From Dickeya chrysanthemi NCPPB 402 (GTDB taxonomy: Bacteria > Pseudomonadota > Gammaproteobacteria > Enterobacterales > Enterobacteriaceae), in assembly GCF_000406105.1 (NCBI RefSeq), contig NZ_CM001974.1, positions 2,221,385 to 2,260,417 of the forward strand: a DNA stretch of 39,033 nt. The letters are read 5' to 3'. Numbering within the stretch: the first letter of the stretch is position 1; each line of letters starts with the position of its first letter. Positions 4,526 through 38,386 of the stretch are shown here, in pieces. The translations under genes and the position numbers were made by a program. The notes under the pieces are model-generated. The model saw only the letters and a list, made by a program, of their open reading frames with translations. It was not told where the DNA came from and did no database searches.

Positions 4526-6238
4526 ATGCAAGGTAGAACATATCTTATTGCAGCCAGCATACTCTGTTCTTCGCTGGCGCAGGCGGCATCATCGTCTGAC
4601 GTCAGTATGGCGCTCTCAGGCATGAAAGCGCAAATTGATAATGGGTTGGTTTCTGTTGCTATCGGCAGTGATGGCAGCATTGGTACGCTGTCAAACGGTA
4701 GCCAGAATCTGATCGATAAAGCCAATAGCCAGGTTAATGCGCTCGGCAAAAGCAGTACCGGCTATCTGGATTATTATTCAGGCTCATTTTTGAAGTTTAA
4801 ACCACAGCAGATTTCTGTTATCGAGAACAGTAAAGATATTGTGCATGTTGCTTATATCGATAATGAAACCAGCACACTGAGCCTGGAATATCATTTCATT
4901 GTGCGGCGTGGCGTCAGTGGGATTTACAGCTACGCGGTAGCGCGTAATGATACCTCATCTAATCTCACGGTCAGTGAATTACGTGGCGTATACCGGTTTA
5001 ACCCCTTCCTGCTCGATCATATCTCCAACGGTATTCGCACCACGAAACCCTATCTTTATTCCCAGCTCAATAACTTTGAAAAAATCCAGGATGAGACCTG
5101 GAAATTGCCGGACGGCAGCTATTACTCCAAATACGATTTCGCCGGTTATATGCGTAAAACACCGGTGTGGGGCGTATACGGCAATAATATCGGTGCGTGG
5201 ATTATTCCAGGCAGTACCGAGTATATGTCCGGCGATGACACCAAACAGGATTTGATGGTGCATCAGGATGGCCTGGCGATCATGTATATGACCGGTTCGC
5301 ATTTCGGTACACCGGATCTGATAGCGCCTCCGGGCTGGCAGAAACTGTATGGCCCCTGGTTGTTGTATGTCAATACGGGCTCGGATGACCAGATGTATCG
5401 CGATGCGCTGACGCGTAGCCAGCAGGAAATCGCCGACTGGCCTTATAAGTGGGTCAATGACAGCCGCTTCCCGCTGGATCGCGCCAGTGTTTCCGGCAGT
5501 ATCAATACGACGCAACCACTAAACGTGACGCTATCGTCCCCGTTGAATGAAGCGTCGGATGTACAGACGTTGGGTTATGCCTTTACCACCAATACCGATA
5601 ATCAGGGTAATTTCCGCTTTGATAAAGTGCGCAAAGGCAAATATACCCTGACGGTTTACGCCAACGGCGGTAACCGACCGGGTGTGCTCTACAGCGACGT
5701 AGTGAATGTAACCGGCGCAACGCAGATACCGGCGATTCAACTGTCTGAGGCCGCTCCGGTGGTGTGGTCTATTGGTAAGAGCGACCGGTTGGCGTCCGAA
5801 TTCCGTTTTGGCGATCAATTGCGTAATTATCACTGGCAGAATGATGTACCGGCCAATCTGACGTATACCGTTGGTCAGTCGAGCCCGGCGCAAGACTGGT
5901 ATTACGCCCAGACCAACCCCGGCAGTTGGAATGTGAACTATGTCGACCGTGCCGACGGCAGCGGCAGGGTGCTGAACGTGGCGTTTGCCGCCGCCAGCAA
6001 CCGCGGGATGACCAATCCGACGACGCCTTCGTTGTCGGTGTCGGTGAACGGCACCAAAGTGAAAGACATTCAGTATGACAATGACAAGGCGTTATACCGT
6101 GGGGCAATGAACAGCGGTAAATATCACTACGAGCGAATGACTATCGATGGTGGTTTGCTGCGCGATGGCAATAACACCATTACCTTCACGCTCAATGGCG
6201 GTACTTTCATGTACGATGCCGTGACATTAACGAAATAG
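4526..6238 (+). CDS. rhiE: Secreted rhamnogalacturonan lyase RhiE (polysaccharide lyase family 4)
   Basis: A 570-aa exported enzyme predicted to cleave the rhamnose-galacturonate backbone of rhamnogalacturonan I by beta-elimination. The start at 4526 gives a signal peptide (MQGRTYLIAASILCSSLAQA, cleavage near Ala-Ala) and has AAGGGA about 9 nt upstream. The order fits PL4: catalytic beta-sandwich domain to about residue 340, a small fibronectin-III/carboxypeptidase-regulatory-like domain (about 345-440, with the NQGNFRFDKVRKGKYTLTVY pattern), and a C-terminal carbohydrate-binding-like jelly-roll (about 450-570). In Dickeya RhiE is reported to leave the cell through the Out type II system; that is prior knowledge. 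It stands alone, between cnu and the ara genes, with a hairpin terminator behind it. Confidence 0.92.
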   Translation: MQGRTYLIAASILCSSLAQAASSSDVSMALSGMKAQIDNGLVSVAIGSDGSIGTLSNGSQNLIDKANSQVNALGKSSTGYLDYYSGSFLKFKPQQISVIENSKDIVHVAYIDNETSTLSLEYHFIVRRGVSGIYSYAVARNDTSSNLTVSELRGVYRFNPFLLDHISNGIRTTKPYLYSQLNNFEKIQDETWKLPDGSYYSKYDFAGYMRKTPVWGVYGNNIGAWIIPGSTEYMSGDDTKQDLMVHQDGLAIMYMTGSHFGTPDLIAPPGWQKLYGPWLLYVNTGSDDQMYRDALTRSQQEIADWPYKWVNDSRFPLDRASVSGSINTTQPLNVTLSSPLNEASDVQTLGYAFTTNTDNQGNFRFDKVRKGKYTLTVYANGGNRPGVLYSDVVNVTGATQIPAIQLSEAAPVVWSIGKSDRLASEFRFGDQLRNYHWQNDVPANLTYTVGQSSPAQDWYYAQTNPGSWNVNYVDRADGSGRVLNVAFAAASNRGMTNPTTPSLSVSVNGTKVKDIQYDNDKALYRGAMNSGKYHYERMTIDGGLLRDGNNTITFTLNGGTFMYDAVTLTK

Positions 6239-6337: not shown

Positions 6338-7849
6338 TTATGCCCGGTGTCCGCACAGCTTGTAATACAGATCGTTCCAGCGCAGCCCATCTTTGAAGGC
6401 CGGTAGGGTGGTGTGCTGATCAATTACCGTCAACTCGATGTTGTGCAAGTCGGCGTACAACCGCAGGTAATCGAGATCCAGCGACTGCGTAAACACGGTA
6501 TGGTGGGCACCGCCGGCCAGAATCCAGGCTTCGGCGGCGGTTTCCAGCGACGGCTGCGCTTGCCAGAGCGCGCGGGCGACCGGCAGCTTCGGCAACGGAT
6601 GCGGCTGAGCGACGGCATCGACCTGATTGACCAGTAGACGGAAACGATCGCCCAGATCGATCATGCTGACGTTCAGCGCCGATCCGGCCGGGGCGGAGAA
6701 GATCAACCGTACCGGATCCGCTTTGCCGCCGATCCCAAGGTATTGCGCATCCAGCAGCGGTTTGGCCTCGCTGGCGATACTCGGGCACACTTCCAGCATG
6801 TGCGCGCCCAATACCAGATTGTTGCCGGGTGCGAAATGGTAGGTGTAATCCTCCATAAAGGAGGTGCCGCCGGGCAATCCCTGCGCCATCACTTTCATCA
6901 CGCGCAACAGCGCGGCGGTTTTCCAGTCGCCTTCGGCGCCAAAGCCATACCCTTGTTGCATCAGTCGTTGTACCGCGATGCCGGGCAGTTGCTTGAGGCC
7001 GTAGAGGTTTTCAAAATTGGTGGTGAAGGCTCTAAAACCGCCCTGATCGAGAAAGCGTTTCAGGCCGATTTCGATGCGCGCCGCATCCAGCAGATTCTGC
7101 CGTTTAGGGCCGTGCAGTTTGACGGCATCGCTTAAGGTGTAGGTCGCTTCATATTCTTCAATCAGCGCGTCAATGTCGCCCTGACCGACATCATCCACCA
7201 CGCCGACCAGATCGCCCAGCCCCCAGGCGCTGACGGCGTAACCAAACTGGATTTGCGCACCGACTTTATCGCCTTCGGTGACCGCCACTTCCCGCATATT
7301 ATCGCCAAAACGCGCCACTTTAAGCTGGCGGCTTTCCTGCAACGCCGCTGCGACCCGCATCCATTTGGCGATGCGTTCATGGGCGTTGCGATCCTGCCAG
7401 TGACCGACCACCACTTGGTGCGCCTGACGCATACGCGCGCCGATAAAACCGAACTCGCGTCCGCCGTGGGCGGTTTGGTTCAGGTTCATAAAATCCATAT
7501 CCATGCTGTCCCACGGGATATCGGCGTTGAACTGGGTATGGAACTGCAACAGCGGTTTATTCAGGATACTCAGGCCACCAATCCACATTTTGGCCGGTGA
7601 GAAGGTATGCAGCCAGGCCAGCAGCCCGATGCAGTTATCCTGATAGTTGGCGTCGCGGCACAACGCGGTAATTTCATCCGGCGTTTTGACCAGCGGTTTG
7701 AGTACCAGCCGCACTGGCAGGTTGGCGTCGCGGTTCAGGCCATTCACGACTTTTTCGGCGTTCTCTTTTACCTGACGCAGCGCTTCCGGGCCATACAGAT
7801 GCTGACTGCCAATCACAAACCAGACTTCGAGCGGCTTAAATTGTTCCAT
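6338..7849 (-). CDS. araA: L-arabinose isomerase
   Basis: A 503-aa cytoplasmic enzyme converting L-arabinose to L-ribulose, the first intracellular step. It starts [20 protein letters not shown] and ends near CGHRA, both typical of enterobacterial AraA (500 aa in E. coli). Conserved stretches include [28 protein letters not shown] and the [11 protein letters not shown] segment near the metal site. AGGAG stands 7 nt before the ATG. It lies 53 bp behind araB in an araB-araA operon. The usual third gene, araD, is not present; the operon ends at a terminator shared with rhiE. Confidence 0.98.
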
Positions 7850-7902
7850 GATGACTCCTGTTTAGGTTCCCAGCGGGATATAAAATGATGTTCGGCAAAT
7901 AC

Positions 7903-9588
7903 TTAATCGTTTGCCCCAGCGTGAGGGGCGTAAGCAGGTTCCGCCAGCCGACACCATTGCTGATAACGTTCGTAAAGCTGTTGATAACGGGCGACCCGTT
8001 GCGGATCCGGCATCAGGGTGCGTTCGATACCGCAGGCCATATGCCGTTGTGCAGAGGGAATATCCGGATGCGATCCGGCCGCGACGGCGGCGAAGATGGC
8101 CGCACCCAGCGCGCAGCATTGATCCGAGGCGACGATCTGCATCGGGCGATTCATCACGTCGGTACAGACTTGCATAATGGTGGCGGATTTGCGGGCAATC
8201 CCTCCCAGCGCGAGCACGTTTTCTACCGGAATGTGCTGAGATTCAAAGCAAGCCATGATGGCGCGCGCGCCAAAAGCGGTGGCGGCGATCAACCCGCCGA
8301 ACAGGGCCGGGGCATCGGTGCCGAGGTTAAGATCGGTGATCACGCCTTTGAGGCGCTGATTGGCGAACGGCGTACGGCGGCCATTAAACCAGTCGAGCAC
8401 CACCGGCAGGTGGTCGAGCGACGGGGAAGCAGCCCAGGCTTGCGTCAACTGGGCCAGCAGGCTGGATTGCAGTTGATCGAGTTGCGGCTGCCATTCCGGG
8501 TGTTCACTGGCGGCCAGTTGCAGTGGCCAGCCCAGTACGCGGCCAAACCAGGCGTACATATCGCCGAAGGCGGATTGTCCGGCTTCCAGACCGATGTAGC
8601 CGGGCACCACGCTGCCATCGACCTGACCACAGATCCCGGCGATCGTCTTGTCGCCGACGCGATCCGCGTCGGCTATCAGAATGTCGCAGGTCGAAGTACC
8701 GATAACTTTGACCAGCGTATAAGGCTGCGCTCCGGCACCGACCGCGCCCATGTGACAATCAAAGGCACCGCCGGCGATAACGACGTGTTCAGGTAATCCT
8801 AAGCGCTGCGCCCATTGCGGCGTCAGCGTGCCGACCGGATGATCGGCGGTCCAGGTTTCGGTAAACAGCGGGTAGTGCAGTTTTTCCGTCAGGCAGGGAT
8901 CCAGCGCCTGTAAAAAATCTTTTGGCGGCAATCCACCCCAGTCGGGGTGCCACAAGGATTTGTGTCCGGCGCTGCAACGACCACGACGAATGGCATCCGG
9001 TGCCGTGGTGCCGGAGAGCAGGGCCGGTACCCAGTCGCACAGTTCTATCCAGGAGACCGCCGCCTGACGCACCGCCGGGTCCTGCCGGGTGATATGGAGA
9101 ATTTTGGCCCAGAACCATTCCGATGAATACACCCCGCCGATGTAGCGGGTGTAATCCGGAAACTGGCCGCTGCGGCATAGCTGGTTGATGGCTTCGGCTT
9201 CATCAATGGCGGTGTGATCTTTCCATAGCACAAACATGGCGTTGGGGTTATCCGCAAACTCCGGACGTAGCGCCAGAACGTTACCTTGTTCATCTATTGG
9301 CGCCGGCGTTGAACCGGTGGAGTCGACGCCAATGCCGGTTATCTGCTGACGCTGTTCGGGAGTCAATCGTGCGACCACGGTACGAATCGCCAGTTCCAGT
9401 GATTCGATGTAATCCAACGGATGGTGGCGAAACTGGTTGCTGGCGGGGTGACAATATTGTCCCTGACGCCAGCGCGGATAATAGACCACTTCTGTTTCCA
9501 ATTCCTGCCCGCTGCGGCAATCCACCGCCAGCGCACGGACAGAATCGCTGCCAAAATCAAGACCGAGAGTAATGGCGCCCGCACTCAT
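7903..9588 (-). CDS. araB: Ribulokinase
   Basis: A 561-aa FGGY-family kinase phosphorylating L-ribulose to L-ribulose 5-phosphate with ATP. The N-terminal [16 protein letters not shown] phosphate-binding segment and [15 protein letters not shown] are diagnostic of AraB, and [19 protein letters not shown] also fits the family. The C-terminal ATPase lobe carries [10 protein letters not shown]. Length matches E. coli AraB (566 aa). GGAG lies 8 nt upstream of the ATG. It is the first gene of araBA and diverges from araF across a 382-bp control region. Its product would need an AraD epimerase encoded elsewhere. Confidence 0.98.
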
Positions 9589-9703
9589 CGTTGCTGCTCC
9601 TGTTAATCGTAGGGATCACGCTGTTTACGATAGACAGGCCGTACCGGCGCCGTGAGGAGCGGTTAGCTGGAAGTATGTATTTTTCTGTCGCGCGCAGGGG
9701 TTT

Positions 9704-9719
9704 TGTGATGGCGGTCATA
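9704..9719. promoter_or_regulatory. Candidate CRP-cAMP site
   Basis: TGTGATGGCGGTCATA matches TGTGA-N6-TCACA at 9 of 10 defined positions. Its place in the shared ara control region fits catabolite control of arabinose genes. Confidence 0.6.
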
Positions 9720-9748
9720 AGTTAATGGCAGGTTAAATTTGCTGAATC

Positions 9749-9765
9749 TATGTACAAATCAGCTG
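9749..9765. promoter_or_regulatory. Candidate AraC half-site
   Basis: TATGTACAAATCAGCTG resembles the E. coli AraC half-site pattern TATGGA-N7-GCTA at 8 of 10 positions, read in one orientation. It lies 30 bp from the CRP candidate. A second half-site was not identified with confidence. Confidence 0.35.
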
Positions 9766-9970
9766 TAGTTTCTGAATGTGATTGTGCTCTCTCTTCGTGG
9801 TGAAAATACCCGCTACAAATTACGCGTCTAAAGGAAAACGGAGAAGAGAATCAAAATAACCCTTTGTTTTTTCATTGTTCCAGAAAACAACATCTTACTG
9901 AGAGCGTTTACACGCGTGATGGCACCTCCGGTTGCCATCGTGTTAAAGATAACAATGAGCGGAGAAGACC

Positions 9971-10954
9971 ATGCATAAATTCACTAAGGTTTTGGCGGCG
10001 ATTGGGCTGGCTGCGGTTATGTCACAATCGGCTATCGCGGAAAATATGAAGCTGGGCTTTCTGGTCAAACAGCCGGAAGAGCCCTGGTTCCAGACCGAAT
10101 GGCGGTTTGCCGACAAAGCCGGTAAAGACCTGGGATTTGACGTTATCAAGATAGCCGTACCCGACGGCGAGAAAACCCTCAATGCTATCGACAGCCTGGC
10201 GGCCAGCGGCGCCAAAGGGTTTGTCATCTGTACCCCCGACCCGAAGCTGGGGTCGGCCATCGTTGCCAAGGCGCGCAGTTATAACCTGAAAGTGATCGCC
10301 GTGGATGACCAGTTCGTCAATGCTAAAGGGCAGCCGATGGACAGCGTGCCGCTGGTGATGATGGCCGCCACCAAAATTGGCGAGCGTCAGGGACAGGAAT
10401 TATGGAAAGAAATGCAGAAGCGCGGCTGGAAACTTCAGGAAACGGCGGTCATGGCGATCACCGCTAATGAGTTGGACACCGCTCGCCGTCGTACCTCCGG
10501 ATCGATAGATGCGCTGAAAGCCGCCGGATTCCCGGAAAAACAGATCTATCAGGTGCCGACCAAATCCAACGACATCCCCGGCGCATTTGATGCCGCCAAC
10601 TCGCTGCTGGTGCAGCACCCCAACGTGAAAAACTGGCTGGTGGTCGGCATGAACGACAATACCGTGCTGGGCGGCGTGCGTGCGACAGAAGGGCAAGGAT
10701 TCAAAGCGGCCAACGTGATCGGCATTGGCATCAACGGGGTGGATGCGGTCAGCGAATTGTCTAAAGCGCAGCCAACCGGCTTCTACGGTTCATTGCTACC
10801 CAGCCCAGACGTACACGGCTACAAGAGCATCCAGATGTTGCATGACTGGGTAACCAAAGGGGTAGAACCGCAGAAATTCACCGAAGTGACCGATGTGGTG
10901 CTGATTACCCGCGATAACTTTAAAACCGAACTGCAGAAGAAAGGCCTGATGTAA
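9971..10954 (+). CDS. araF: L-arabinose-binding periplasmic protein
   Basis: A 327-aa exported substrate-binding protein that delivers L-arabinose to the AraGH ABC importer. It has a signal peptide (residues 1-23, [20 protein letters not shown] then AIA|EN) and the type I periplasmic-binding fold. Conserved binding-site and hinge segments include [33 protein letters not shown] and [20 protein letters not shown]. The close resemblance to E. coli AraF excludes other sugar specificities with fair certainty. It is the first gene of araFGH-araC, and a hairpin separates it from araG. Confidence 0.98.
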
Positions 10955-10962
10955 TGACCCTG

Positions 10963-10987
10963 GTCCGCCTGAGAGTGTCGGGCGGGC
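10963..10987 (+). other. Intercistronic hairpin between araF and araG
   Basis: GTCCGCC (10963-10969) pairs with GGCGGGC (10981-10987), one G-U pair, 11-nt loop, beginning 8 nt after the araF stop. No U-tract follows. Such hairpins behind binding-protein genes commonly stabilise the upstream mRNA so that binding protein exceeds transporter; that role is inferred here. Confidence 0.5.
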
Positions 10988-11039
10988 AGGACACTGGCGC
11001 GCCGTCACGCCGACGGTGCCGCCCATTGAGGATGCTGAA

Positions 11040-12563
11040 ATGACCGTACAGTCACCTTATTTATCTTTCCGGGGGATCGGCAAGGTTTTTCCCGGCGTCA
11101 AAGCCCTGGACGACATCAGTTTTGACTGCCATGCCGGACAAATCCATGCATTGATGGGGGAAAACGGCGCGGGCAAATCCACCTTGCTGAAAATTTTGAG
11201 CGGCAATTACACGCCGTCGCAGGGAGAAATTCAGATCAAAGGCCAGCCGGTGCGCTTCGCCAATACGATGGACGCGCTGAATGCCGGTGTGGCGATCATC
11301 TATCAGGAATTGCATCTGGTGCCGGAAATGACGGTAGCGGAAAACATCTATCTGGGACAACTGCCGCACAAGGGCGGGCTGGTAAACCGGTCGCTGCTGC
11401 GTTATGAAGCCGGTTTGCAATTACAGCATCTCGGGCTGGATATCGACCCGGACACCCCGCTGAAATATCTGTCCATCGGGCAGTGGCAGATGGTGGAAAT
11501 CGCCAAGGCGCTGGCGCGTAACGCCAAGATTATCGCCTTTGACGAGCCGACCAGCTCGCTGTCGGCGCGGGAAATCGAACAGCTGTTTCGGGTGATTCGC
11601 GAGTTGCGCAGCGAAGGTCGGGTGATTTTGTATGTGTCGCACCGTATGGAGGAAATCTTTGCGCTGAGCGATGCCATCACCGTGTTCAAAGACGGGCGCT
11701 ACGTGAAAACCTTTAGCGACATGCAGCAGGTTGACCACGCTCAGTTGGTTCAGGCGATGGTGGGGCGCAATCTGGGCGATATTTACGGCTATCAGCCACG
11801 CCCTCACGGCGAGCCGCGGCTGGAACTGCATGAGGTGAAAGCGGTGGGCGTGAAATCGCCGATTTCATTATCCGTACGCAGCGGTGAAATCGTCGGCCTG
11901 TTTGGGCTGGTGGGCGCCGGACGCAGTGAGCTGATGAAAGCGCTGTTCGGCGCTACCGGGATTACCGGCGGCGAGGTGCGGCTGGACGGTCAGCCATTAC
12001 ACGCCAGAACGCCTGGCGATGCTATCCGCCGCGGCTTGATGTTGTGCCCGGAAGATCGCAAAGCCGACGGCATCATTCCGGTGCATTCGGTGCGGGACAA
12101 CATCAACATCAGCGCCCGTCGCAAGCATATTAAAAACGGTTTCATCATCAATGACGCCTGGGAGGAGGAAAATGCCGATCATCACATTCAGGCGCTGAAT
12201 ATCAAAACGCCGTCGCCGACGCAGCTGATCATGAACCTGTCCGGCGGTAATCAACAGAAGGCGATCCTTGGCCGTTGGCTGTCGGAGGACATGAAAGTGA
12301 TCATGCTGGATGAACCGACCCGCGGCATTGACGTCGGCGCCAAGCATGAAATCTATCACGTGATCTACGAACTGGCCCGTCAGGGCATTGCCGTGCTATT
12401 TGCCTCCAGCGACTTGCCTGAAGTGCTGGGACTGGCGGATCGCATCGTGGTGATGCGCGAGGGCGCCATTTCCGGCGAACTGCTGCACGATGAAGCCAGT
12501 GAACAGCACGTCCTGAGTCTGGCGATGTTGAAAACGACTGCTACTGAACCCGCGGTTGCCTGA
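11040..12563 (+). CDS. araG: L-arabinose ABC transporter, duplicated ATPase
   Basis: A 507-aa cytoplasmic ATPase with two fused ABC domains, powering arabinose import with AraH. Domain 1 has Walker [10 protein letters not shown] (residues 40-48), signature LSIGQWQ and Walker [12 protein letters not shown]. Domain 2 has the degenerate P-loop GLVGAGRSE, a canonical signature LSGGNQQK and Walker [13 protein letters not shown]. This asymmetry is normal for the sugar (CUT2) class. The ATG at 11040 was chosen because it gives [20 protein letters not shown], aligning with AraG; the frame is open slightly further upstream. araH follows after 17 bp. Confidence 0.97.
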
Positions 12564-12580: not shown

Positions 12581-13567
12581 ATGTCTACGGTTAGTTCCCC
12601 TTCCCACGCCGGCAAATCTCATGGCTTTAGCCTGTCCCGCATTTGGGATAATTACGGCATGTTGGTGGTGTTTGCCGCCCTGTTTCTGGCTTGTGCGTTG
12701 TTCGTGCCGAATTTCGCTACCTTCGTCAACATGAAAGGGTTGGGCCTGGCAATCTCCATGTCGGGCATGGTGGCGTGCGGCATGCTGTTTTGCCTTGCTT
12801 CCGGCGATTTTGACTTGTCGGTCGCGTCGGTGATTGCCTGCGCCGGTGTCACCACCGCGGTAGTGATCAACCTCAGTGAAAGTTTGTGGTTGGGCGTCGG
12901 CGCCGGGCTGTTGCTGGGGGTGGCGTTCGGTTTGCTCAACGGGTTTGTCATCGCGCAACTGAAAATCAACGCGCTGATCACCACACTGGCGACCATGCAG
13001 ATTGTGCGTGGGCTGGCGTACATCATCTCCGACGGCAAGGCGGTGGGTATCGAAGATGAGCGTTTCTTCACGTTGGGGTACGCCAACTGGCTGGGGTTGC
13101 CGGCGCCGATCTGGCTGACGGTCATTTGCATGGTGCTGTTCGGTTTACTGCTCAATAAAACCACCTTTGGGCGTAATACGCTGGCGATTGGCGGCAATGA
13201 AGAAGCGGCCCGGCTGGCCGGGGTACCGGTGGTTCGCACCAAAATCATTATTTTCGGCCTGTCCGGGCTGGTTTCCGCCGCCGCCGGCATCATTCTGGCG
13301 TCGCGTATGACCAGTGGCCAGCCGATGACGTCGATCGGCTATGAATTGATTGTGATTTCGGCGTGCGTACTGGGCGGTGTGTCACTGAAAGGCGGCATCG
13401 GCAAGATATCCTATGTCGTGGCTGGGGTGTTGATTCTGGGAACGGTGGAAAACGCCATGAACTTGCTGAATATTTCGCCCTTTGCTCAATATGTGGTGCG
13501 TGGTTTGATTCTGCTGGCGGCGGTGATTTTTGACCGCTACAAGCAACTGTCGAAGAAAACGGTGTGA
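12581..13567 (+). CDS. araH: L-arabinose ABC transporter permease
   Basis: A 328-aa CUT2-family inner-membrane permease with about 8-10 hydrophobic segments, forming the channel for AraF-delivered arabinose. It matches E. coli AraH (328 aa) closely, including GMVACGMLFCLASGDFDLSV, ALITTLATMQIVRGLAYIIS, the cytoplasmic coupling loop GGNEEAARLAGVPVVRTKI and the end VIFDRYKQ. Two tandem ATGs (12578, 12581) follow the SD AAGGA; 12581 has the better spacing and reproduces the E. coli length. The next gene, araC, begins 69 bp downstream on the same strand. Confidence 0.97.
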   Translation: MSTVSSPSHAGKSHGFSLSRIWDNYGMLVVFAALFLACALFVPNFATFVNMKGLGLAISMSGMVACGMLFCLASGDFDLSVASVIACAGVTTAVVINLSESLWLGVGAGLLLGVAFGLLNGFVIAQLKINALITTLATMQIVRGLAYIISDGKAVGIEDERFFTLGYANWLGLPAPIWLTVICMVLFGLLLNKTTFGRNTLAIGGNEEAARLAGVPVVRTKIIIFGLSGLVSAAAGIILASRMTSGQPMTSIGYELIVISACVLGGVSLKGGIGKISYVVAGVLILGTVENAMNLLNISPFAQYVVRGLILLAAVIFDRYKQLSKKTV

Positions 13568-13636
13568 TAACCGATGAGCGCCGGCCCTGAGCCGGCGCTA
13601 CCCATAACAGACGAGAATCTCTTTTCAGGAGGCCGC

Positions 13637-14587
13637 ATGTATCACCGTATGGCGCATGAGTCACAACCCAACCCGTTGCTGCCCGGTTATGCGTTTAACG
13701 CCTATCTGGTGGCCGGGTTGACGCCGATTCTGGCAGGTGGGCCGCTGGATTTCTTTATCGACCGTCCGGACGGCATGAAGGGGTACATCATCAACCTGAC
13801 CATCAAAGGCCAGGGCAAAGTGCTGGATGGCGACGATACGTTTTTCTGCAATCCCGGCGACCTGCTGCTATTTCCCCCCCGTTCGCGGCACTACTATGGA
13901 CGCGCTCCCAGCAGCGACTGTTGGTATCACCGCTGGGTCTATTTCCGGCCGCGGGCCTACTGGGCCGACTGGCTGGAATGGCACAGCAAAGGGTGCGACG
14001 TCGGGCGGCTGACGCTGTCCAGCACCGGGTTGTTGCAGGAGTTCGATAAACTGTTCGCCAATATTGAACAGACCCACCGTTCCGGCCGGCGTTTTGCCGA
14101 AGAGCTGGCGATGAACCTGCTGGAGCGCCTGCTGTTGCGCGCAATGGAGGAAGACCCGCAGAGCCCGCAACGGATTATGGACCCGCGGGTGATCGAAGCC
14201 TGTCAGTTTATTACCGGCAATCTGGCCGGTGAGCTGCGAATTGATGAGGTGGCGCGCCATGTGTGTTTGTCGCCGTCGCGGCTGGCGCATTTGTTTCGTG
14301 AGCAGGTAGGGGTGAATATCCTGCGCTGGCGCGAAGATCAACGGGTGATTCGCGCCAAATTGTTGTTGCAGACGACCCAGGAGTCGATCGCCGCCGTCGG
14401 GCGGGTGGTGGGCTATGACGATCAACTCTATTTTTCCCGCGTGTTCCGTAAACGGGTCGGCGTGAGCCCCAGCGATTTCCGCCGTCGCAACAGCGAAATC
14501 CATCATCCGGCGTTGGAAAGATCACTGGATGCCTCGGCCTGGCGGGGGGAACTGCTTGCATCACATCCGTGGATGGCAACGCCGTAA
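13637..14587 (+). CDS. araC: Arabinose operon regulatory protein AraC
   Basis: A 316-aa AraC-family regulator expected to repress and activate the ara promoters according to L-arabinose. The N-terminal cupin domain (about residues 15-180) has the arabinose-arm region and [18 protein letters not shown]. The C-terminal DNA-binding domain has two helix-turn-helix units ([20 protein letters not shown] and [20 protein letters not shown]) and ends with the family pattern [20 protein letters not shown] lies 4 nt before the chosen ATG. It is longer than E. coli AraC (292 aa) but near the reported size for Erwinia chrysanthemi AraC. It stands at the end of araFGH, not divergent from araB as in E. coli. 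Confidence 0.95.
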
Positions 14588-32470: not shown

Positions 32471-33697
32471 TCATGCGTCGTTCATTTCCTGATTATCTGC
32501 TTCTACGGCGTCGTACAGCCGCTCCAGAATATCCGGAAATGCCGACTGAACCCGGTTCCAACTGGGGACAAACGGTTTATCCCCCGGACTGTCGCTGTAT
32601 ACCTGTCCGGATTGGGTAATGACATCGGCGAACAGCTCTACCGCCGACTCCTCGGTATGTCGATCAAAATGCAGGCCGTTCATGCGGGCATCGTGTTCAA
32701 ATGAGTCGATCATATCCAGCGCGGTCCGATAATACGTGGCCCGCAGCACCCGGAATGAATCAGTAGTGATATTTACGCCCTGGATTGCCAGTTTGCGGTA
32801 TAGCGCTTTGGTGATATCCATTGCCATACGTTGCAATCCGGAACTCGGGTCGTTTTCTGACATCGGTTGATGTTTATGGTCGTAATTATCGGCGATATCC
32901 ACCTGACAGATACGGCTGGTTGCCGTTCCGCGGTGAATTTCCGACAACATGCCGATTTCCAGCCCCCAGTCGCTTGGAATGCGCAAGTTCCGTAGCACAT
33001 GGCTACGCATCGCGAATTCGCCGGATAATGGATAACGGAAACTGCGCATATACTCGAGATAGTCTGAATTACCGTAAACGCTTTGCAACGATTTCAACAG
33101 TGGAAACACCAGCAAACGCCCAACGCGCCCGTTGAGTTTTCCTTCGGCTACCCGCGCATAATAGCCTTTGCAGAAATCGTAGTGAAAATAAGGGTTGGCA
33201 ATGGGGTAGAGCAAGCGAGCCAGCATGGCGCGATCATAAGTGACAATGTCACAATCATGCAAGGCGATGCAGGCAGTACGGCGCGACGCTAAGGTATAGC
33301 CGACGCAAAACCAAACATTACGGCCTTTCCCTTGTTCCATCGGCGCCAATTCTTTGTCGGTCAACTCCTGACTGAGTCGGGTCAGGCGAGGGCCATCGTT
33401 CCACAGAATGCGGTGCCGCTGTGGAAGACGAGAGAAAAATTGCCGGGCAAACAGAAACTGTTCGCGGTCAGCCCGATCAAGCCCGATGACGATTTCAGAC
33501 AGATAGGGGACCTGAGCCAGCATATCGACAATCTTACCCAGCGCCGGGCCTTCCAATTCTGAGAACAGGGAAGGGAGGATCAGCCCCATACTGCTCTGGC
33601 CGGAAAATACCTGTAACTCGTATTCCAACTCTTCGACGCTGCGCCGGGTAAGATTATGAAAATTGGTAATAATGCCATCCTGATAAAACTCGCTCAT
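32471..33697 (-). CDS. gpgS: GT81-type glycosyl-3-phosphoglycerate synthase (probably glucosyl)
   Basis: A 408-aa glycosyltransferase likely joining a nucleotide-activated sugar to 3-phosphoglycerate, the first step of glucosyl- or mannosylglycerate synthesis. The start MSEFYQDGIITNFHNL has AAGGAGG about 11 nt upstream. LILPSLFSELEGPALGKIV resembles the GT-A nucleotide-sugar entry motif; D148-C-D150 in ALHDCDIV is the metal-binding DxD; QGKGRNVWF and SGEFAMRSHV also fit GpgS/MpgS proteins. Choice of glucose is inferred: Dickeya is known to accumulate alpha-glucosylglycerate under osmotic stress. Its partner phosphatase gene lies 19 bp upstream in the same operon. Confidence 0.8.
   Translation of the reverse strand: MSEFYQDGIITNFHNLTRRSVEELEYELQVFSGQSSMGLILPSLFSELEGPALGKIVDMLAQVPYLSEIVIGLDRADREQFLFARQFFSRLPQRHRILWNDGPRLTRLSQELTDKELAPMEQGKGRNVWFCVGYTLASRRTACIALHDCDIVTYDRAMLARLLYPIANPYFHYDFCKGYYARVAEGKLNGRVGRLLVFPLLKSLQSVYGNSDYLEYMRSFRYPLSGEFAMRSHVLRNLRIPSDWGLEIGMLSEIHRGTATSRICQVDIADNYDHKHQPMSENDPSSGLQRMAMDITKALYRKLAIQGVNITTDSFRVLRATYYRTALDMIDSFEHDARMNGLHFDRHTEESAVELFADVITQSGQVYSDSPGDKPFVPSWNRVQSAFPDILERLYDAVEADNQEMNDA
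33568..33575 (+). other. KOPS-like octamer pointing towards dif
   Basis: GGGAAGGG matches GGGNAGGG, plus strand, 1.2 kb left of dif. Confidence 0.55.
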
Positions 33698-33716
33698 GGG
33701 GATTATTCCTCCTTTA

Positions 33717-34538
33717 TTAATCAAGCAGTTCCGCTTCATAACGACCGAGAAAATAGGTGAGTCCTTCGCTCCAGCCGGCCGGTCCGGCGGCTTGGGTACG
33801 GTAAATCTCTTTACAAGAACCAGGTGACAACGTCACATAATGGTTGTGGTTTCCTTTAATGATCACGGCGTAGTCAGTCGCTTCCAGCAATGACGTATCG
33901 TTTGGTCCATCACCGAGCCCGATAGTAGCCAACGTTTGTCTGGTTGCTGCTTGCATCTGTTTTATCAATTGATGCACTGCGATACCTTTGCTGATGCCGT
34001 TATGCATCACGTGAAGAAAACGGCCGCCTTGCGTTAAAGAGAGCTTTTTTTGGGCCAGACAGGCCCTGAATATTTCCAGCGATGCCGTATCGCCCTGCCA
34101 CAGTAGCGGTTCGGAAGCATGGCGTTGGCGGGCCAGCGCTGCTTGCGGCACAGTCAGCCCTGTAACCGCCGCTACCGCAACATCATCCATGTCGGCAAAG
34201 CCACGGAATACAAAACCGTAGCGTTCACGCAACAGCTGTAACTGCCGGCAGATATCAGAGTAGGTAAGAGAGGCGGTTGAAGGCGAAGAAAGCCGGGATG
34301 ACGGCAACAGAATATGCGCGCCGTTTTCTGCTATGGCCGGCATATCACTCAATCCCAATGCCTGCTGTAGCGGCATAATTTCTGCCGCCGTTTTGCTGGT
34401 TGTGATGATGATCGGTACCTGCTGACGTTGCAGCCGGTTCAACCATGGTTTGGCGTCATCCCAGCGGTAGGTATCGTGATCCAGCAGTGAACCATCCAGA
34501 TCGGTAAAAATAACCCAATTCGTAGTCAATTCAGGCAC
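33717..34538 (-). CDS. HAD-family glycosyl-3-phosphoglycerate phosphatase (MpgP/YedP type)
   Basis: A 273-aa HAD phosphatase (Cof/MPGP group) expected to release glycosylglycerate from its phosphate ester. Motif I is D13-L-D15-G in VIFTDLDGSLLDHD; motif II is the ITTSK segment; motif III/IV include K184 (GISKGIAV) and GDGPND (209-214). The GTG at 34538 is chosen because AGGAGG stands 5 nt upstream; an ATG 20 codons earlier has no ribosome site. It is related to E. coli YedP, annotated as mannosyl-3-phosphoglycerate phosphatase. It precedes gpgS by 19 bp, which fixes the pathway; the sugar is not certain. Confidence 0.85.
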   Translation of the reverse strand: MPELTTNWVIFTDLDGSLLDHDTYRWDDAKPWLNRLQRQQVPIIITTSKTAAEIMPLQQALGLSDMPAIAENGAHILLPSSRLSSPSTASLTYSDICRQLQLLRERYGFVFRGFADMDDVAVAAVTGLTVPQAALARQRHASEPLLWQGDTASLEIFRACLAQKKLSLTQGGRFLHVMHNGISKGIAVHQLIKQMQAATRQTLATIGLGDGPNDTSLLEATDYAVIIKGNHNHYVTLSPGSCKEIYRTQAAGPAGWSEGLTYFLGRYEAELLD

Positions 34539-34683
34539 TTTTGCCTCCTGTATAGATACTACAGATTTGCTTAGGGTGCGGTACAAGACAACTGACATGC
34601 GGATTGACGATAAAACGCTATTCGCCAGATTATTGTGATGGAAATGATTTGGGTGCTTTCTAAGCCTAGGCAGAGATCACTAT

Positions 34684-34709
34684 TTTCGCAAACTGTGGGT
34701 AAGACGCTG
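34684..34709. repeat. Short dispersed repeat, copy 2 (upstream of dif)
   Basis: Second copy of the motif at 4230-4257, differing at a few purine positions. It lies 50 bp left of dif in the spacer before the glycosylglycerate operon. Nothing else in this 339-bp spacer (34539-34877) is coding apart from dif. Confidence 0.5.
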
Positions 34710-34759
34710 ACCGCGAATGACTGGCCAGCCGAGTGTCATAACCCGCCTGACCTTACATT

Positions 34760-34787
34760 GGTTCGCATAATGTATATTATGTTAAAT
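34760..34787 (+). other. dif: Chromosomal dif site (XerC/XerD recombination site)
   Basis: The 28-bp sequence has the XerC arm GGTTCGCATAA, the 6-bp centre TGTATA and the XerD arm TTATGTTAAAT. From memory E. coli dif differs at only one position, the fourth base (G there, T here). XerCD resolves chromosome dimers at this site under FtsK control. It lies 8.7 kb from the Ter site and 90 bp before the mobile recombinase module, so it could be either the ancestral dif or a hybrid end made by an insertion. Confidence 0.95.
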
Positions 34788-34877
34788 CTTGTTTAATGCA
34801 CAATTACTTCACTAACCAATCCTCACCACTGAAAATCATGTAGTTAAAGCGTCTCTCACCTTTTCATTGCGGCAGTA

Positions 34878-35672
34878 ATGTTTAAGAGTTATTTTCTTCA
34901 TATCCATGCATTTGATGAGGACTTTATGGTGTTTGTAGTCACTCAGCTCAATGTTGTACCGCATAAGCGCCTGTGGGTGTTGGTCGATTCAGAAACAAGC
35001 CTGCCACTTTTGTTTCCACTTAGATTTCTTGTCGATCGCCTGTCTTTGCGTTCTGCGTCTACTCAAGCAACCACCCTCCAGGCGTTAAAGTTTTTCTATG
35101 AGTTTTGGTTTAATAAACATGGAGTAACTTTTTGCTTCAGTTTTTACCAGTCGGGGCATAATCCTCTGATTGCTATTGAAGAGCTGGAGGCTTTTTCCCA
35201 TTATTTGGAATGCAGGAAACCTAGTGTTCCTGTACTCAGGATCGCAAACCACCAAAAACCGGATGCTCAAAGTTGTACAAATGCAAAGCATGTGCATGCG
35301 GTTATTCGCTTTATCACATATATGATTAATACTTATATTTCGCCACGGTATATGGATGAATCTCCTAAAGAATTGTCTCGTCTTTCCTCTCGATTGACAA
35401 ATCGAGTATCGATGCTCCGGGATGAGTTTCAAATTGGTAAAATAAAAAAATCTCACAAACAATTCCGTAGCTTGACGACCGAGATGGTAAGGGTTCTTTA
35501 CGAGGTTATCAGGCCGAGTTCACGTTCCCGAGCGAACCCTCTGAATCCCTTCCCTATCGGAGAAATTCAGTTTCGTAATTACTTAATTTGTCGTCTTTTG
35601 CTAAATTATGGTTTGCGTGTCAGTGAACTCCTACTTCTGGAAATAAAGTGGTTGGTTGCGGGGGAATGGTAA
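34878..35672 (+). pseudogene. Truncated tyrosine recombinase, TnpA/GmtY-like first gene of the trio
   Basis: A 264-aa product that begins like a tyrosine recombinase: a core-binding-type region (about residues 50-200, with SASTQATTLQALKFFYEFWF and HVHAVIRFITYMINTYISPR) and the first catalytic box LLNYGLRVSELLLLEI, with Arg near residue 250. The protein then stops after ten unrelated residues. The HxxR and Tyr boxes are not found in any frame before the next gene, so about the last third is missing and it should be inactive. An internal deletion joining it to the next gene is the simplest explanation. An ATG at 34926 preceded by GAGG is an alternative start. Base composition is more A/T-rich than the chromosome on the left. 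Confidence 0.75.
35547..35554 (-). other. KOPS-like octamer on the opposite strand, right of dif
   Basis: CCCTTCCC is GGGAAGGG on the minus strand, 0.8 kb right of dif, so it points back to dif. It lies inside the truncated recombinase gene. Confidence 0.5.
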
Positions 35673-37887
35673 AAATTCGTTGCGATTTAATGAAATCAGC
35701 CGTTTCAAAGGTATTGATGGCTCCCATACAATTGACGATGCTTATATCAAATTTATGAAATCCATGCTGGTACTTGTATACCAGGGACGGAACCGAAACA
35801 TATCTCCATCTGTAGCCATAGCAACCTTGATGATTTTAAAACGCCGGTACCATGCGTTGGTGGAAACTACCGGACAAACTCACCCAGTTTACTTAACCAC
35901 AGACGTTATTCTTCGTGCAATGGATGTCCTAAGTGCCGCATCAACACCGGGCGATCCTAACACTGCCAATTATAAAGGCCGCTGTGTAAGTCTTCAGAAA
36001 CTGATAAATCATCAGGCATTTACTCTTGTTACTTTGCAATATGTTTCTGATATTCAGTACACCAACCAAACTAATTTAACCCGCAAGGCTCAGGAAGCCA
36101 TTGCACTAAAACGCCAGGATAAGCTGGCTGATATGACCACCGATGGTGAGGATTCATTGATTACTATTCGTGGTTTCTTGAATATTGTTGCTTTAATCCA
36201 CCGAGTAGAAAGTGATGCCGAGAAGATCGCTCTAAATTGCTTGTTATTACTCGTTATTACTGGTTTTCGTTCTGTTGAAGCGTTTAACCTTAGACAGGAT
36301 GCCCTGGTCAAACGCCATATTGATGACTCAGCAGCACGTAAGCGGCTCCAGGACAAGGGACTTCCTGATTATTTCCTTGGCATACGCTATGTCGGTGTTA
36401 AAGGTGCTGGAGAACGCACGCACTGGGTAGAACCGTTAGCTGTACCGCTGGTTGAGAACATATTCAAAGTGGTAAAAAAACTGACCGCACCGATGCGTCG
36501 CCATCTGATCTATTTGCGGGAAAAAGCGTTTAGCGATTACTTGCCAATAGGCATCAACGCCCTGTCTGATGAATTAATTGAGTTGGATAATGTGGTCGAA
36601 CATATGATTCAAACCACATCAAGTTCTCGAGGCCGTGGTGGGCGGCGGGAGCACGCCTCAAAAGCTTTGGCAAGTCGTGGCATTCTGCCCACAAAAAAAG
36701 TATTGGGACCGCAGCACTCAAAATCCATTTATTTTACAAAAAATCATCTTAATCATTTCATAAAAATCGAATTCGGTATAACCGACGTTAACGTGCCTTG
36801 CACTCACGCCTGGCAAGAGAGTGGAAAAAAATACACAGTCAATTATGAAGATTTACTATTTTTACATGTAAAAGGCTCATTAGCATTACGACGCACTTTA
36901 CTATTAATAGCTGTACCCATACCGCTCGATAACCGGGTAATGAGTAAATTCCTAGGTAATTCTGATCCTGCTGGATCGGTATTCAGCAAATACAAGTTAC
37001 TAGAGGATGATGGTACTCCTACACAAATGCGTACCCATATACCCCGGCATAATATTAATACCTTCCTCGCTATTGCAGAGGTTTCTGATCATTTACAGGC
37101 TATGCTGATGGGACGCGTAGATATTACGCAAAACCGCCATTACCAACATCTGGCACTTGCTGAACGTAGAAAAGCGGCTTCACTGATTGGCTTTCAGTCA
37201 ACATCCACAGCATTAGCCACTGAACCTCATTCCCCCTCAGTTAAAACGCCGCTGAATATCGTAAAACACACGGGACATATGGTGGTCACAGAGAGTACGG
37301 GGCTTGATAACAACATTAAAGCCAATCTACACACCTTTGATGATCGCAATGATGTAGTTGGGTTTATCGAGGCGTCATTTGCTGATGGTTTATTTGAGGA
37401 TATTGCCGCAGCTTTTGAAGAAATCAGTAACAATGAAGGCCTAGAACAAGCAACTGAGATGGTGGAAAGACACGCTGTGCTACATCCCCTGAAATTCGGT
37501 TCCTGTACACGTGCAGTTAATCTCTGGGGGTGTCCCTATCGGTTGAAATGCCAGAGTGTGGCGTTTTGCGAGCATTTCACCCTTACAGGGCGCATTGATG
37601 AGTTGCCCAATCTCTTCGCAAAAAAACAGGCACTACTGCAATCACACGCAAAACTGACTCAGCTTGCTAAACACCAGGCGGATTACCAGTCCAAACTGGC
37701 TCAGATCGAGCAAAGTTTGCAACATCTGGATGCTATCCAATCACAATGGTTGAGTCGCGCTGAAGCACGACGGTTAGTCTCAACAGAATATGTTCTGTCA
37801 GGAAAGATAAAAGTTGAAGGAGAAATCAAGACATTGGCACAGCTTTTTACTTTAGAGCACAAAAAACTGACTAGGGGGAACCTCTGA
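35656..37887 (+). CDS. Large tyrosine recombinase, TnpB/GmtZ-like second gene of the trio
   Basis: A 743-aa protein read from a TTG (residue 34 is the first Met, 35755). It has a recognisable tyrosine-recombinase active site spread over a long core: Arg205 in VITGFRSVEAF, possible Lys249, H461 and R464 in HIPRH, R487 in MGRVDITQ and the likely nucleophile Tyr496 in RHYQH. After it comes a C-terminal region with C617, C626, C632 and C638 (spacing 8, 5, 5), a zinc-finger-like cluster, then a coiled coil (about 655-700). This arrangement resembles Tn554 TnpB and the GmtZ protein of gamma-mobile-trio islands. The N-terminus overlaps the truncated first gene and may have lost residues. Stop overlaps the next start as TGATG. 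Confidence 0.8.
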   Translation: MRGNGKNSLRFNEISRFKGIDGSHTIDDAYIKFMKSMLVLVYQGRNRNISPSVAIATLMILKRRYHALVETTGQTHPVYLTTDVILRAMDVLSAASTPGDPNTANYKGRCVSLQKLINHQAFTLVTLQYVSDIQYTNQTNLTRKAQEAIALKRQDKLADMTTDGEDSLITIRGFLNIVALIHRVESDAEKIALNCLLLLVITGFRSVEAFNLRQDALVKRHIDDSAARKRLQDKGLPDYFLGIRYVGVKGAGERTHWVEPLAVPLVENIFKVVKKLTAPMRRHLIYLREKAFSDYLPIGINALSDELIELDNVVEHMIQTTSSSRGRGGRREHASKALASRGILPTKKVLGPQHSKSIYFTKNHLNHFIKIEFGITDVNVPCTHAWQESGKKYTVNYEDLLFLHVKGSLALRRTLLLIAVPIPLDNRVMSKFLGNSDPAGSVFSKYKLLEDDGTPTQMRTHIPRHNINTFLAIAEVSDHLQAMLMGRVDITQNRHYQHLALAERRKAASLIGFQSTSTALATEPHSPSVKTPLNIVKHTGHMVVTESTGLDNNIKANLHTFDDRNDVVGFIEASFADGLFEDIAAAFEEISNNEGLEQATEMVERHAVLHPLKFGSCTRAVNLWGCPYRLKCQSVAFCEHFTLTGRIDELPNLFAKKQALLQSHAKLTQLAKHQADYQSKLAQIEQSLQHLDAIQSQWLSRAEARRLVSTEYVLSGKIKVEGEIKTLAQLFTLEHKKLTRGNL

Positions 37888-38318
37888 TGCGCGGAAAGGA
37901 ACTGGACACACTGATTGAACACGAACTACAACTGATGATGATTGAAGGCTTTGATAAATCGCCTATTTCTGCCAAAGCTTTGCATACCCGACTTAAGGAA
38001 AAGGGTATTCTCAACGGAGGTTTAAGCACACTGAGCAGCTTGGAGCGAAAACGGCTGATCGCAGCCTATGTTGATCAGCAACTCAATCCACTGAACTTAC
38101 GCCCTAAAGAAAAACAACAATATGTCAACCGAAAAACTCGGCAGGCACTGTTGGCTAGAAATCAGCAGTTGCAGACGGAAATCAGCGAGCTACGCGATCA
38201 ACTGACACAAAATACAGTTGCCTTAATTGCAATTGTTAAAGCGGTAAAAATTAATACGGCAATTCCTGTAGAAAGTTTGCTTGCACCTCATGTGATCAGA
38301 GAGCTACATAAGTCGTAA
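37887..38318 (+). CDS. Small coiled-coil accessory protein, TnpC/GmtX-like third gene of the trio
   Basis: A 143-aa protein with no signal peptide or membrane segment. The N-terminal half is helical and basic-acidic mixed (SAKALHTRLKEKGILNGGLS); residues about 85-125 form a heptad-type coiled coil (RNQQLQTEISELRDQLTQNT). Size, position and coiled coil match TnpC of Tn554 and GmtX, which act with the two recombinases; in Tn554 TnpC affects transposition frequency and orientation. TGATG coupling and AGGGGG before the ATG show co-translation with the large recombinase. Identity is by context and shape, not by a motif. Confidence 0.7.
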   Translation: MRGKELDTLIEHELQLMMIEGFDKSPISAKALHTRLKEKGILNGGLSTLSSLERKRLIAAYVDQQLNPLNLRPKEKQQYVNRKTRQALLARNQQLQTEISELRDQLTQNTVALIAIVKAVKINTAIPVESLLAPHVIRELHKS

Positions 38319-38386
38319 CGAAGCCCCTGTCGATGGCCATTTTCTACATCTGTGTCAATCGGATAGATTCTTACTAGGTGATTTTT

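Follow-up and report, generated by a model that had tools for sequence, protein, structure and literature searches.

What are the recombinase-like open reading frames (ORFs) beside the dif site of Dickeya chrysanthemi NCPPB 402, and how did they come to lie there? The dif site is best known as the target of elements that borrow the host XerCD recombinases. A preliminary description of the 39,033-nt stretch analyzed here (the window; its coordinates are used throughout, and all features named are on the plus strand) suggested a family that targets dif or its flank with recombinases of its own. Our analysis indicates that the window very probably contains the left end of a decayed GInt (ginABCD island) belonging to a clade that targets Xer sites.

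RESULTS

A dif site at the left edge of the recombinase ORFs

The sequence at 34760 to 34787 matches E. coli dif at 27 of 28 positions. Matches with three or fewer mismatches were absent from all 100 dinucleotide shuffles of the window, and this is the only such match in the 4,700,353-base genome; with the comparison across the genus given below, these results identify the chromosomal dif and confirm that it lies beside recombinase ORFs. We take the XerC arm to be 34760 to 34770, the central six bases to be 34771 to 34776, and the XerD arm to be 34777 to 34787. The changed fourth base of the site had been proposed to be the trace of an insertion. However, T is found at this position in all nine Dickeya genomes and is thus normal for the genus, and seven of the nine lack a close copy of ORF2 (six have no match and one has a distant partial match), so that the proposal does not hold. 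The reported shift to A/T-richer composition at the ORFs was reproduced: G+C content is 51.2% in 33001 to 34759, 43.2% in the ORFs, and 44.2% in the whole island.

Three ORFs as the remnant of a gin operon

Three co-oriented ORFs directly follow dif, as the ORF list had indicated: ORF1 (34878 to 35672), ORF2 (35656 to 37887), and ORF3 (37887 to 38318). They had been described as whole genes. Taking the four-gene operon (genes A to D) of a Raoultella plasmid as the reference for gene completeness, we found that ORF1 corresponds to residues 1 to 243 of the 463 residues of gene A (window, 34929 to 35642; 54% identity), that ORF2 corresponds to gene C from residue 43 of 788 onward (73% identity), and that ORF3 is a complete gene D (90%); no window ORF matched gene B. 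Two of the three ORFs are therefore incomplete, and one gene of the operon is absent. The region 34878 to 35672 is a ginA remnant that has lost the catalytic second half, 35647 to 37887 is ginC minus its first ~42 codons, and 37887 to 38318 is complete ginD. Cargo starts at 38319, with an ORF from 38378 that has no Pfam match, and continues past the window end at 39033. The conserved ginA start lies near 34926, ~138 bp from dif; the distance of 90 bp given previously arose because an in-frame ATG further upstream was taken as the start.

The flanks of a point at ~35647 (35643 to 35650) switch in similarity: the left flank is 93% identical to G122 and L037, and the right flank is 94% identical to P. 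versatile. This is the fusion point of two different GInts, at which the end of ginA, all of ginB, and the start of ginC are missing. The HxxR...W...Y residues, invariant in ten relatives, lie beyond the point at which ORF1 ends, so that, with ginB absent as well, the window copy does not have the working pair of tyrosine recombinases attributed to it.

It could still be argued that the three ORFs, being co-oriented and partly overlapping, form a complete working transposition module of the Tn554 tnpABC or gamma-mobile-trio kind. We consider this hardly conceivable: compared with relatives, ginB is absent and both ginA and ginC are truncated, and every gamma-mobile-trio model stays below its cut-off. 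Window ORF1 scored 11.9 bits with the GmtY model against a cut-off of 340, and the four intact proteins of L036 matched no Gmt model at an E value of ≤0.1. As for Tn554 tnpABC, the intact relatives have four genes rather than three, a distinction made by description and not by sequence. Neither of the two identities first suggested for the trio thus applies.

Relatives of the window copy are GInts

Four adjacent co-oriented genes are present in L003, L004, L036, L063-L064 (B is split in L063), L066, L068, and L069, whereas the window copy does not have the four-gene ginABCD arrangement. Against PF00589 (cut-off, 27.1), gene A scored 30.3 and gene B scored 32.9, and gene C remained below at 14.1. 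GinA residues R249, H375, R378, W430, and Y440 are invariant in 10 aligned rows. In GinC (9 rows), HxxRH and Y are present, R replaces the usual H/W, and the first R is variable. The fourth protein has 143 to 144 aa and only below-cut-off Pfam matches, which are coiled-coil-like. Cargo differs among L003, L036, L063, L066, and L068; some island copies carry defense or heat-resistance genes. Short imperfect direct repeats are found at the ends, as in GInts, for which the published range is 10 to 17 nt. By their operon, recombinase motifs, cargo, and end repeats the relatives are GInts, and the window island is a decayed one, a classification by described features rather than by sequence comparison with the type proteins, GinA to GinD of P. 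stutzeri DSM 4166.

Ends of the island and empty sites

Both junctions were set against a close empty relative for one chromosomal copy, that of E. coli GF66.2 compared with MG1655. The GF66.2 island is flanked by two copies of GTTAAAT, the left one inside the XerD arm of dif, and the full flanking repeats, TTATGTTAAAT and ATAAGTTAAAT, are alike at 9 of 11 positions with GTTAAAT identical. At the left, dif is whole; at the far end there is no dif, and the sequence beyond the right GTTAAAT copy is that found immediately after dif in the MG1655 empty site. Judged from this comparison, the 7-base core common to both ends would be the crossover segment. In D. chrysanthemi, the left copy is at 34781 to 34787 and the right copy is at 48482 to 48488 on the window scale. 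The noncoding left end of the GInt extends from 34788 to 34925, where homology to G122 and L037 begins or runs through and the left ends can be aligned; a motif at 34804 to 34817, TTACTTCACTAACC, is the counterpart of the AGTTCATAA-like motif seen in other left ends. The right end, at 48474 to 48488, reads CAACATAA-GTTAAAT, which gives an island of 13.7 kb, and an inverted AGTTCATAA-like motif is common to both ends. The window copy has kept both ends, but its gin operon is a fusion of parts of two GInts. Since all four gin genes were needed in a GInt studied in PMC5385486, this copy probably cannot move unless helped in trans.

The left position at dif invites another explanation, namely, that host XerCD integrated a circle carrying a dif mimic, as in integrative mobile elements exploiting Xer (IMEX), with the recombinase genes as mere cargo. 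The islands do lie at dif or plasmid Xer sites, and in P. versatile the gene just left of dif is one that we take to be filamentous-phage-like. Against this, the right end contains neither a XerC arm nor the central six bases but CAACATAA-GTTAAAT, and the bases common to the two ends lie in the XerD arm rather than in the central region. A search for a second dif or dif arm beyond 39033 had been suggested; the 40 kb to the right contained no well-formed site at up to 7 mismatches of 22, and on that side the island ends in a half site. A dif-like site is thus present at one end only. Moreover, the four recombinase-operon genes accompany the left end throughout the clade. Integration by host XerCD is accordingly very unlikely.

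Empty-site comparisons were also made for other copies. Two plasmids carry the same xrs without the island; in one, L074, the site is followed by the same seven bases as in the island, and so the junction cannot be placed sharply. Used as queries, the left flanks of L003 and L004 matched mostly a widespread insertion sequence (IS), the left flank of L065 matched the fetched relative only to ~275 bp before the site, and for L071 the one record of 64 that spans most of the query was the source itself. Plasmid CP088523 provided the left junction, and on the right side its next backbone match lies beyond IS26. Two loci compared with MG1655 gave no right host junction: in L079, the 12 kb of MG1655 right of dif was not found, and in L080, similarity to MG1655 resumes only after 3.2 kb. 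In two plasmid copies, a transposase gene lies just left of the site.

Xer sites as targets across the clade

An Xer site just upstream of ginA was found in 19 of 29 scored loci (0 to 3 mismatches of 18) and was absent from 10 (6 to 8 mismatches); the window copy is outside this set, and the 29 loci are not independent, since GinA is identical in L004 and L078 and in L065 and L066. Four loci were left unscored: L067 (no ginA and no site), L070 (site present, ginA lost), L038 (contig starting inside ginC), and L083 (contig containing only the end of ginC). The XerD arm is exact in 18 of the 19 Xer-site loci. In the GinA tree, from which L079, L080, and G122 were omitted (ginA incomplete), a 100/100 branch separates the 16 testable Xer-site rows plus L048 from nine distant rows; branches are long, and the placement of L047, L048, L072, and L088 is unsure. 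L065 and L066, with their identical GinA, differ in XerC arm and central six bases. L048 (G191) falls inside the clade and, at 8 mismatches, has no Xer site; the dif-like site occupied by L047 is not the dif of its genome; and in the Aliivibrio copy L069, the XerC arm is poor (3 of 7 mismatched) and the gap is longer, at 266 bp.

In genome surveys with an E value of ≤1e-20, 6 of 394 genomes were positive in the order survey and 1 of 369, the genome studied here, was positive in the class survey; a contig scan of genomes yielded three loci, ginD was found in 3 of 25 Pectobacterium genomes, and G122 was missing from the first family survey. In nine species genomes, a GinC homologue matches over most of the protein's length. 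The island is at the single dif-like site in six of them (D. chrysanthemi, G122, G316, G870, G421, and G292; the G421 and G292 sites differ from the E. coli-type pattern at 3 positions), at another dif-like site in G145, at none in G191, and on a cut contig that could not be placed in the ninth. All three E. coli chromosomes that we fetched have the island at dif. Among 5,426 E. coli genomes, hipA-dif is joined to one of two left-end types in 105 and 21, respectively, and a ginC match is present in 253 (over at least 80% of the query in 218). Plasmids were sampled at 12 loci from 113 records with a ginC match. The counts for the Xer-site loci, the GinC genomes, and the E. coli chromosomes bear out the suggestion that the family targets dif. 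Occurrence of the trio away from dif, named in the preliminary description as evidence against that suggestion, was seen only in part: plasmid copies are off dif but at dif-like sites, and one copy, L048, is at no such site.

These distributions also bear on whether the position reflects chance or a hotspot, the region right of dif gathering foreign DNA and the island arriving by homologous recombination or with another element. The DNA right of dif is different in each of the seven island-free genus genomes, and the transposase genes beside two plasmid copies would fit such a history. Yet in 19 of the 29 loci, which lie on unrelated replicons, the XerD arm directly adjoins the left end, and an Xer site with up to 4 mismatches occurs 7 times per 400 kb of shuffled sequence, both strands counted. 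Furthermore, a right-end scan places its 15-mers near dif, and we consider a chance or hotspot origin highly improbable. The right-end 15-mer, CAACATAA-GTTAAAT, was found in 6 of 25 stretches, against an expectation of 0.0013, and in none of 20 control loci. It is absent from 19 of the 25, many of which stop before the island end; other right ends are possible among them. In a scan of 118 genomes, the 15-mer was found in two other genomes, 10.7 and 1.4 kb right of dif, in both on the same strand as dif and with a GInt left end at dif; the reversed control pattern gave one match. Similarity queries with the right end returned mostly E. coli host flank or IS66, and the short signature also detects remnants without gin genes.

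DISCUSSION

The preferred reading, a decayed GInt from a clade targeting Xer sites, would work as follows. Intact members carry the four genes ginA to ginD immediately inward of the left end, followed by variable cargo and by the right end CAACATAA-GTTAAAT. The Gin recombinases would join the circular island to GTTAAAT within the XerD arm. The crossover would fall to the right of the central six bases, where XerCD exchanges strands, and dif would therefore be regenerated at the left with no second dif at the right. The host would retain dimer resolution, and XerCD would lack a partner site for excising the island. On plasmids, the Xer sites would give the island the same address.

How the site is recognized is a more tentative matter. 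It is possible, though we would not favor it, that the Gin recombinases read XerD (or XerCD) bound to the arm and not the arm itself. The ends have only GTTAAAT in common, yet the Xer site is complete and includes the XerC arm, and IS elements of the IS1202 family also insert beside Xer sites, for which direct contact with XerC is proposed in PMC10132070. On the other hand, L069 and L047 keep the XerD arm with a weak XerC arm. We offer as a speculative proposal that the clade addresses the Xer dimer-resolution site of chromosomes and plasmids by its own reaction, with the crossover in the XerD arm, and may read bound XerD; the chromosome separation machinery of the host would then mark the landing place, its function being spared.

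GInts are already known. Like the GInts of the Tn6571 family as described in PMC5385486 and PMC10214605, the islands have a four-gene end operon encoding three recombinase-like proteins and a small protein, variable cargo, a short AT-rich far end, site-specific insertion, and short imperfect repeats. The targets described there are an ABC-transporter gene, ssb, and a ribonucleotide-reductase gene; here, in contrast, insertion is at dif or a plasmid Xer site, the whole site is regenerated, and an inverted motif is common to both ends. The terms "dif" and "Xer" do not occur in PMC5385486, and among the papers listed by searches of the open PMC literature, supplements aside, we found none on a GInt with an Xer-site target. 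A survey of E. coli defense islands describes GInts with defense systems at several hotspots (PMC10121019), one of which may be the hipA-dif place; its main text, figures and tables aside, has no occurrence of dif, hipA, or Xer. IMEX such as CTX-type phages and Legionella LME-1 also insert at dif but, as described in PMC9765430, bring a dif mimic and rely on host Xer proteins, whereas the islands have no dif at the far end and have their own recombinases. The IS1202 family shares dif and pdif targets on chromosomes and plasmids but, according to PMC10132070, uses a DDE transposase, inserts 5 bp from the XerC arm, and duplicates its target; here, tyrosine recombinases and the XerD arm are involved. 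SE, RIT elements, and Tn554 likewise have several tyrosine recombinases, and SE and Tn554 have a small auxiliary protein; by their description in PMC10214605, rather than by sequence, they differ in gene order or number.

Thus, an island clade with its own recombinases uses dif yet spares it, the common core being shifted into the XerD arm. This would explain why insertion beside hipA recurs in E. coli and how one kind of island can occur on chromosomes as well as plasmids; it also points to possible competition between Xer and Gin proteins for a single DNA arm.

The module beside dif in Dickeya

The dif site of the window comprises 28 bases at 34760-34787 and, as the preliminary description had it, differs from E. 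coli dif by a single base. No second dif-like site at ≤3 mismatches was found elsewhere in the genome, and at that threshold none of 100 shuffled windows gave a match. Each of the nine genomes of the genus has one dif, with T at the fourth position in all nine (eight copies are identical; the ninth has one additional change). T is therefore the normal form of the genus, and the altered base is not the trace of an insertion that it had been proposed to be. The bases just left of dif could be aligned with those of 6/8 other genus genomes (exceptions, G120 and G097). To the right, each of seven island-free genus genomes has a different sequence, and G122 alone continues as the window does. In G122, the module lies at that genome's dif; transposase-like ORFs interrupt its ginA, and its ginB, ginC, and ginD are open.

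The genes right of dif had been described as a recombinase trio. Three ORFs are indeed present, but they are remnants of the four genes of a gin operon, with ginA cut, ginB absent, ginC lacking its start, and ginD whole. In the reference operon, on a Raoultella plasmid, GinA to GinD measure 463, 517, 788, and 144 aa. ORF1 aligns over 34929-35642 with GinA residues 1 to 243 (54% identity), ORF2 with GinC beginning at residue 43 (73%), and ORF3 with the whole of GinD (90%); ginB of this operon had no match in the window. ORF1 still covers the part of GinA around the first catalytic arginine, but the H, R, W, and Y conserved without exception in ten relatives, residues with catalytic roles, are missing. 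The two parts of the operon have different ancestries. Positions 34788-35640 match G122 and Pectobacterium CFBP8739 at 93% identity and are nearly unmatched in Pectobacterium versatile (71.6% over 81 bp), whereas positions 35660-38318 are 94% identical to P. versatile and 86 to 87% identical to the other two. (P. versatile, taken here to be of a different genus within this family, is represented by locus L036 in G869, with the same coordinates in G316.) A deletion spanning two adjacent islands would yield such a fused operon.

A gamma-mobile-trio, one of the modules to which the trio had been likened, was rejected. Of the features that define GInts, genomic islands with ginABCD at one end, its relatives have the four-gene operon, GinA to GinC that are tyrosine recombinases or share that fold, short imperfect flanking repeats, and variable cargo; the small fourth protein gave only sub-cutoff coiled-coil-like Pfam hits. 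Identity as an IMEX, an element that borrows host XerCD, was also ruled out.

The empty site in E. coli and the island ends

Of 5,426 E. coli genomes, 253 have a match to ginC of an E. coli plasmid (218 with at least 80% of the query covered), at 280 chromosomal places and 16 on plasmids. All three E. coli chromosomes fetched have the module at dif beside hipA. When one of them, GF66.2, was compared with MG1655, homology on the left extended through the last base of dif, and on the right it restarted with TAAGTTAAAT, followed by the MG1655 flank. GTTAAAT is present at both ends of this island, and the core-to-core distance is 11,069 bp. In this chromosomal copy, the only one for which both junctions were compared with a close empty relative, the island parts a whole dif on the left from the DNA following dif on the right, with seven bases in common. 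A query running from the hipA flank through dif into an island left end was matched over at least 80% of its length in 105/5,426 E. coli genomes for the GF66.2 type and in 21/5,426 for the L080 type; these counts may overlap and do not require intact gin genes.

A right-end 15-mer taken from GF66.2, CAACATAAGTTAAAT, was exact in 6 of 25 stretches (GF66.2 and five others; chance expectation, 0.0013 in the 720 kb scanned) and absent from the remaining 19, of which many are too short to reach the island end. All 20 control loci, including L048, which is also among the 25 stretches, lack it. The only copy in the Dickeya genome lies outside the window, at window-scale 48474-48488, giving an island of 13,701 bp core to core. 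Where both ends of an island are available (six cases), a AGTTCATAA-like motif lies ~16 to 18 bases inside the left core and, inverted, 19 bases inside the right core; these motifs are candidate recombinase sites. Right ends directly abut the left end of a next island at plasmid locus L003 (21749-21860) and in G316 (L036 extended, near 23191), and the same tandem arrangement is probable at L080:28302-28420.

As a test, 118 genomes of the family were scanned with CAACATAAGTTAAAT. Three were positive (the window's own, G071, and G087), and a reversed control pattern gave one match. G071 and G087 are not among the ten ginC-match genomes of the family survey; both have a recognizable GInt left end at dif, which lies left of the 15-mer on the same strand, at 10.7 kb in G071 and 1.4 kb in G087. 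G071 keeps a ginA fragment. In G087 (L101:227-1689), 1,435 bp separate the cores from dif to the right-end signature, and no match to a gin gene was found in this island, which is either a remnant or a small nonautonomous element.

Xer sites upstream of ginA

For each of the 29 loci in which ginA could be located, we compared the DNA upstream of it with the Xer consensus at 18 positions (the seven inner XerC-arm and eleven XerD-arm bases). An Xer site (0 to 3 mismatches) is present in 19, with an exact XerD arm in 18: three E. coli chromosomes, G122, two Pectobacterium genomes, three other genomes of the order, and ten plasmids (seven from Raoultella or E. coli and one each from Aliivibrio, Lelliottia, and Pseudomonas). 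The site lies 58 to 146 bp from the estimated ginA start in 18 loci and 266 bp from it in Aliivibrio. The remaining ten loci, with 6 to 8 mismatches, are L048 (from G191, contig C10) and nine distant homologues, one of them directly behind an ssb-like gene. In the GinA tree, in which L047, L048, L072, and L088 sit on long branches, a branch with support of 100/100 splits 16 Xer-site rows plus L048 from the nine distant homologues, and the Xer-site label changes twice (shuffled mean, 8.2). L048 is a clade member by GinA without an Xer site upstream, so the clade does not keep strictly to Xer sites. L047 is located at a dif-like site other than its genome's dif. L065 and L066 have identical GinA proteins and unlike XerC arms and central six bases, which suggests that the latter are part of the target.

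Twelve plasmid loci were examined among 113 records with a match; ten have ginA and an Xer site, L070 has an Xer site without ginA, and L067 has neither. The island of E. coli plasmid CP088523 occupies an Xer site that two other plasmids have without the island: one from Cronobacter, 99.9% identical over a 2,525-bp left flank that takes in the site, and one from E. coli. On this second E. coli plasmid, the next seven bases beyond the site are the same as the island's, and the exact join is thus not sharp there. Heat-resistance locus genes lie right of the left end of the CP088523 island (L077:1-7503), in a stretch absent from the empty relatives. ISNCY-type transposase genes are present left of plasmid Xer sites (L004:5302-6648, L066:409-1815, and L063:3580-4983); these elements may belong to the IS1202 family, which, according to PMC10132070, targets Xer sites.

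Cargo and neighbors

The cargo of the Dickeya island, beyond the window at window-scale 39443-47944, looks like defense genes. On locus L025, it comprises a 125-aa piece matching the end of BovA (5827-6201), an 892-aa AAA ATPase matching Ppl (7584-10262), a 268-aa protein with a CAP12/Pycsar-type TIR domain (PDC-S35; 10827-11633), and a 321-aa protein with a sub-cutoff HEPN match (13363-14328). In P. versatile, what we take to be a Zot-like gene of a filamentous phage (L036:6079-6576) ends ~180 bp to the left of dif, so that one dif there may be shared between a phage-like element and a GInt.

Implications

The targets named for published GInts in PMC5385486 are different: an ABC-transporter gene, ssb, and a ribonucleotide-reductase gene. 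Searches of the open PMC library turned up no paper linking GInts to dif. The nearest report, PMC10121019, places GInts in E. coli hotspots, and its main text, tables aside, does not contain the words dif, hipA, or Xer. For another GInt, PMC5385486 reports that excision and integration need all four gin genes and that a circle forms, and 6- to 7-nt staggered cuts are proposed. At dif, the Gin proteins may read the DNA itself or bound XerD, and we infer that strands would be exchanged within GTTAAAT of the XerD arm. Strand exchange by XerCD takes place where the central six bases meet the arms; the Gin reaction would thus differ from it while using the same site. Integration would regenerate dif on one side only; dimer resolution should therefore be spared, and XerCD should be left without a partner site.
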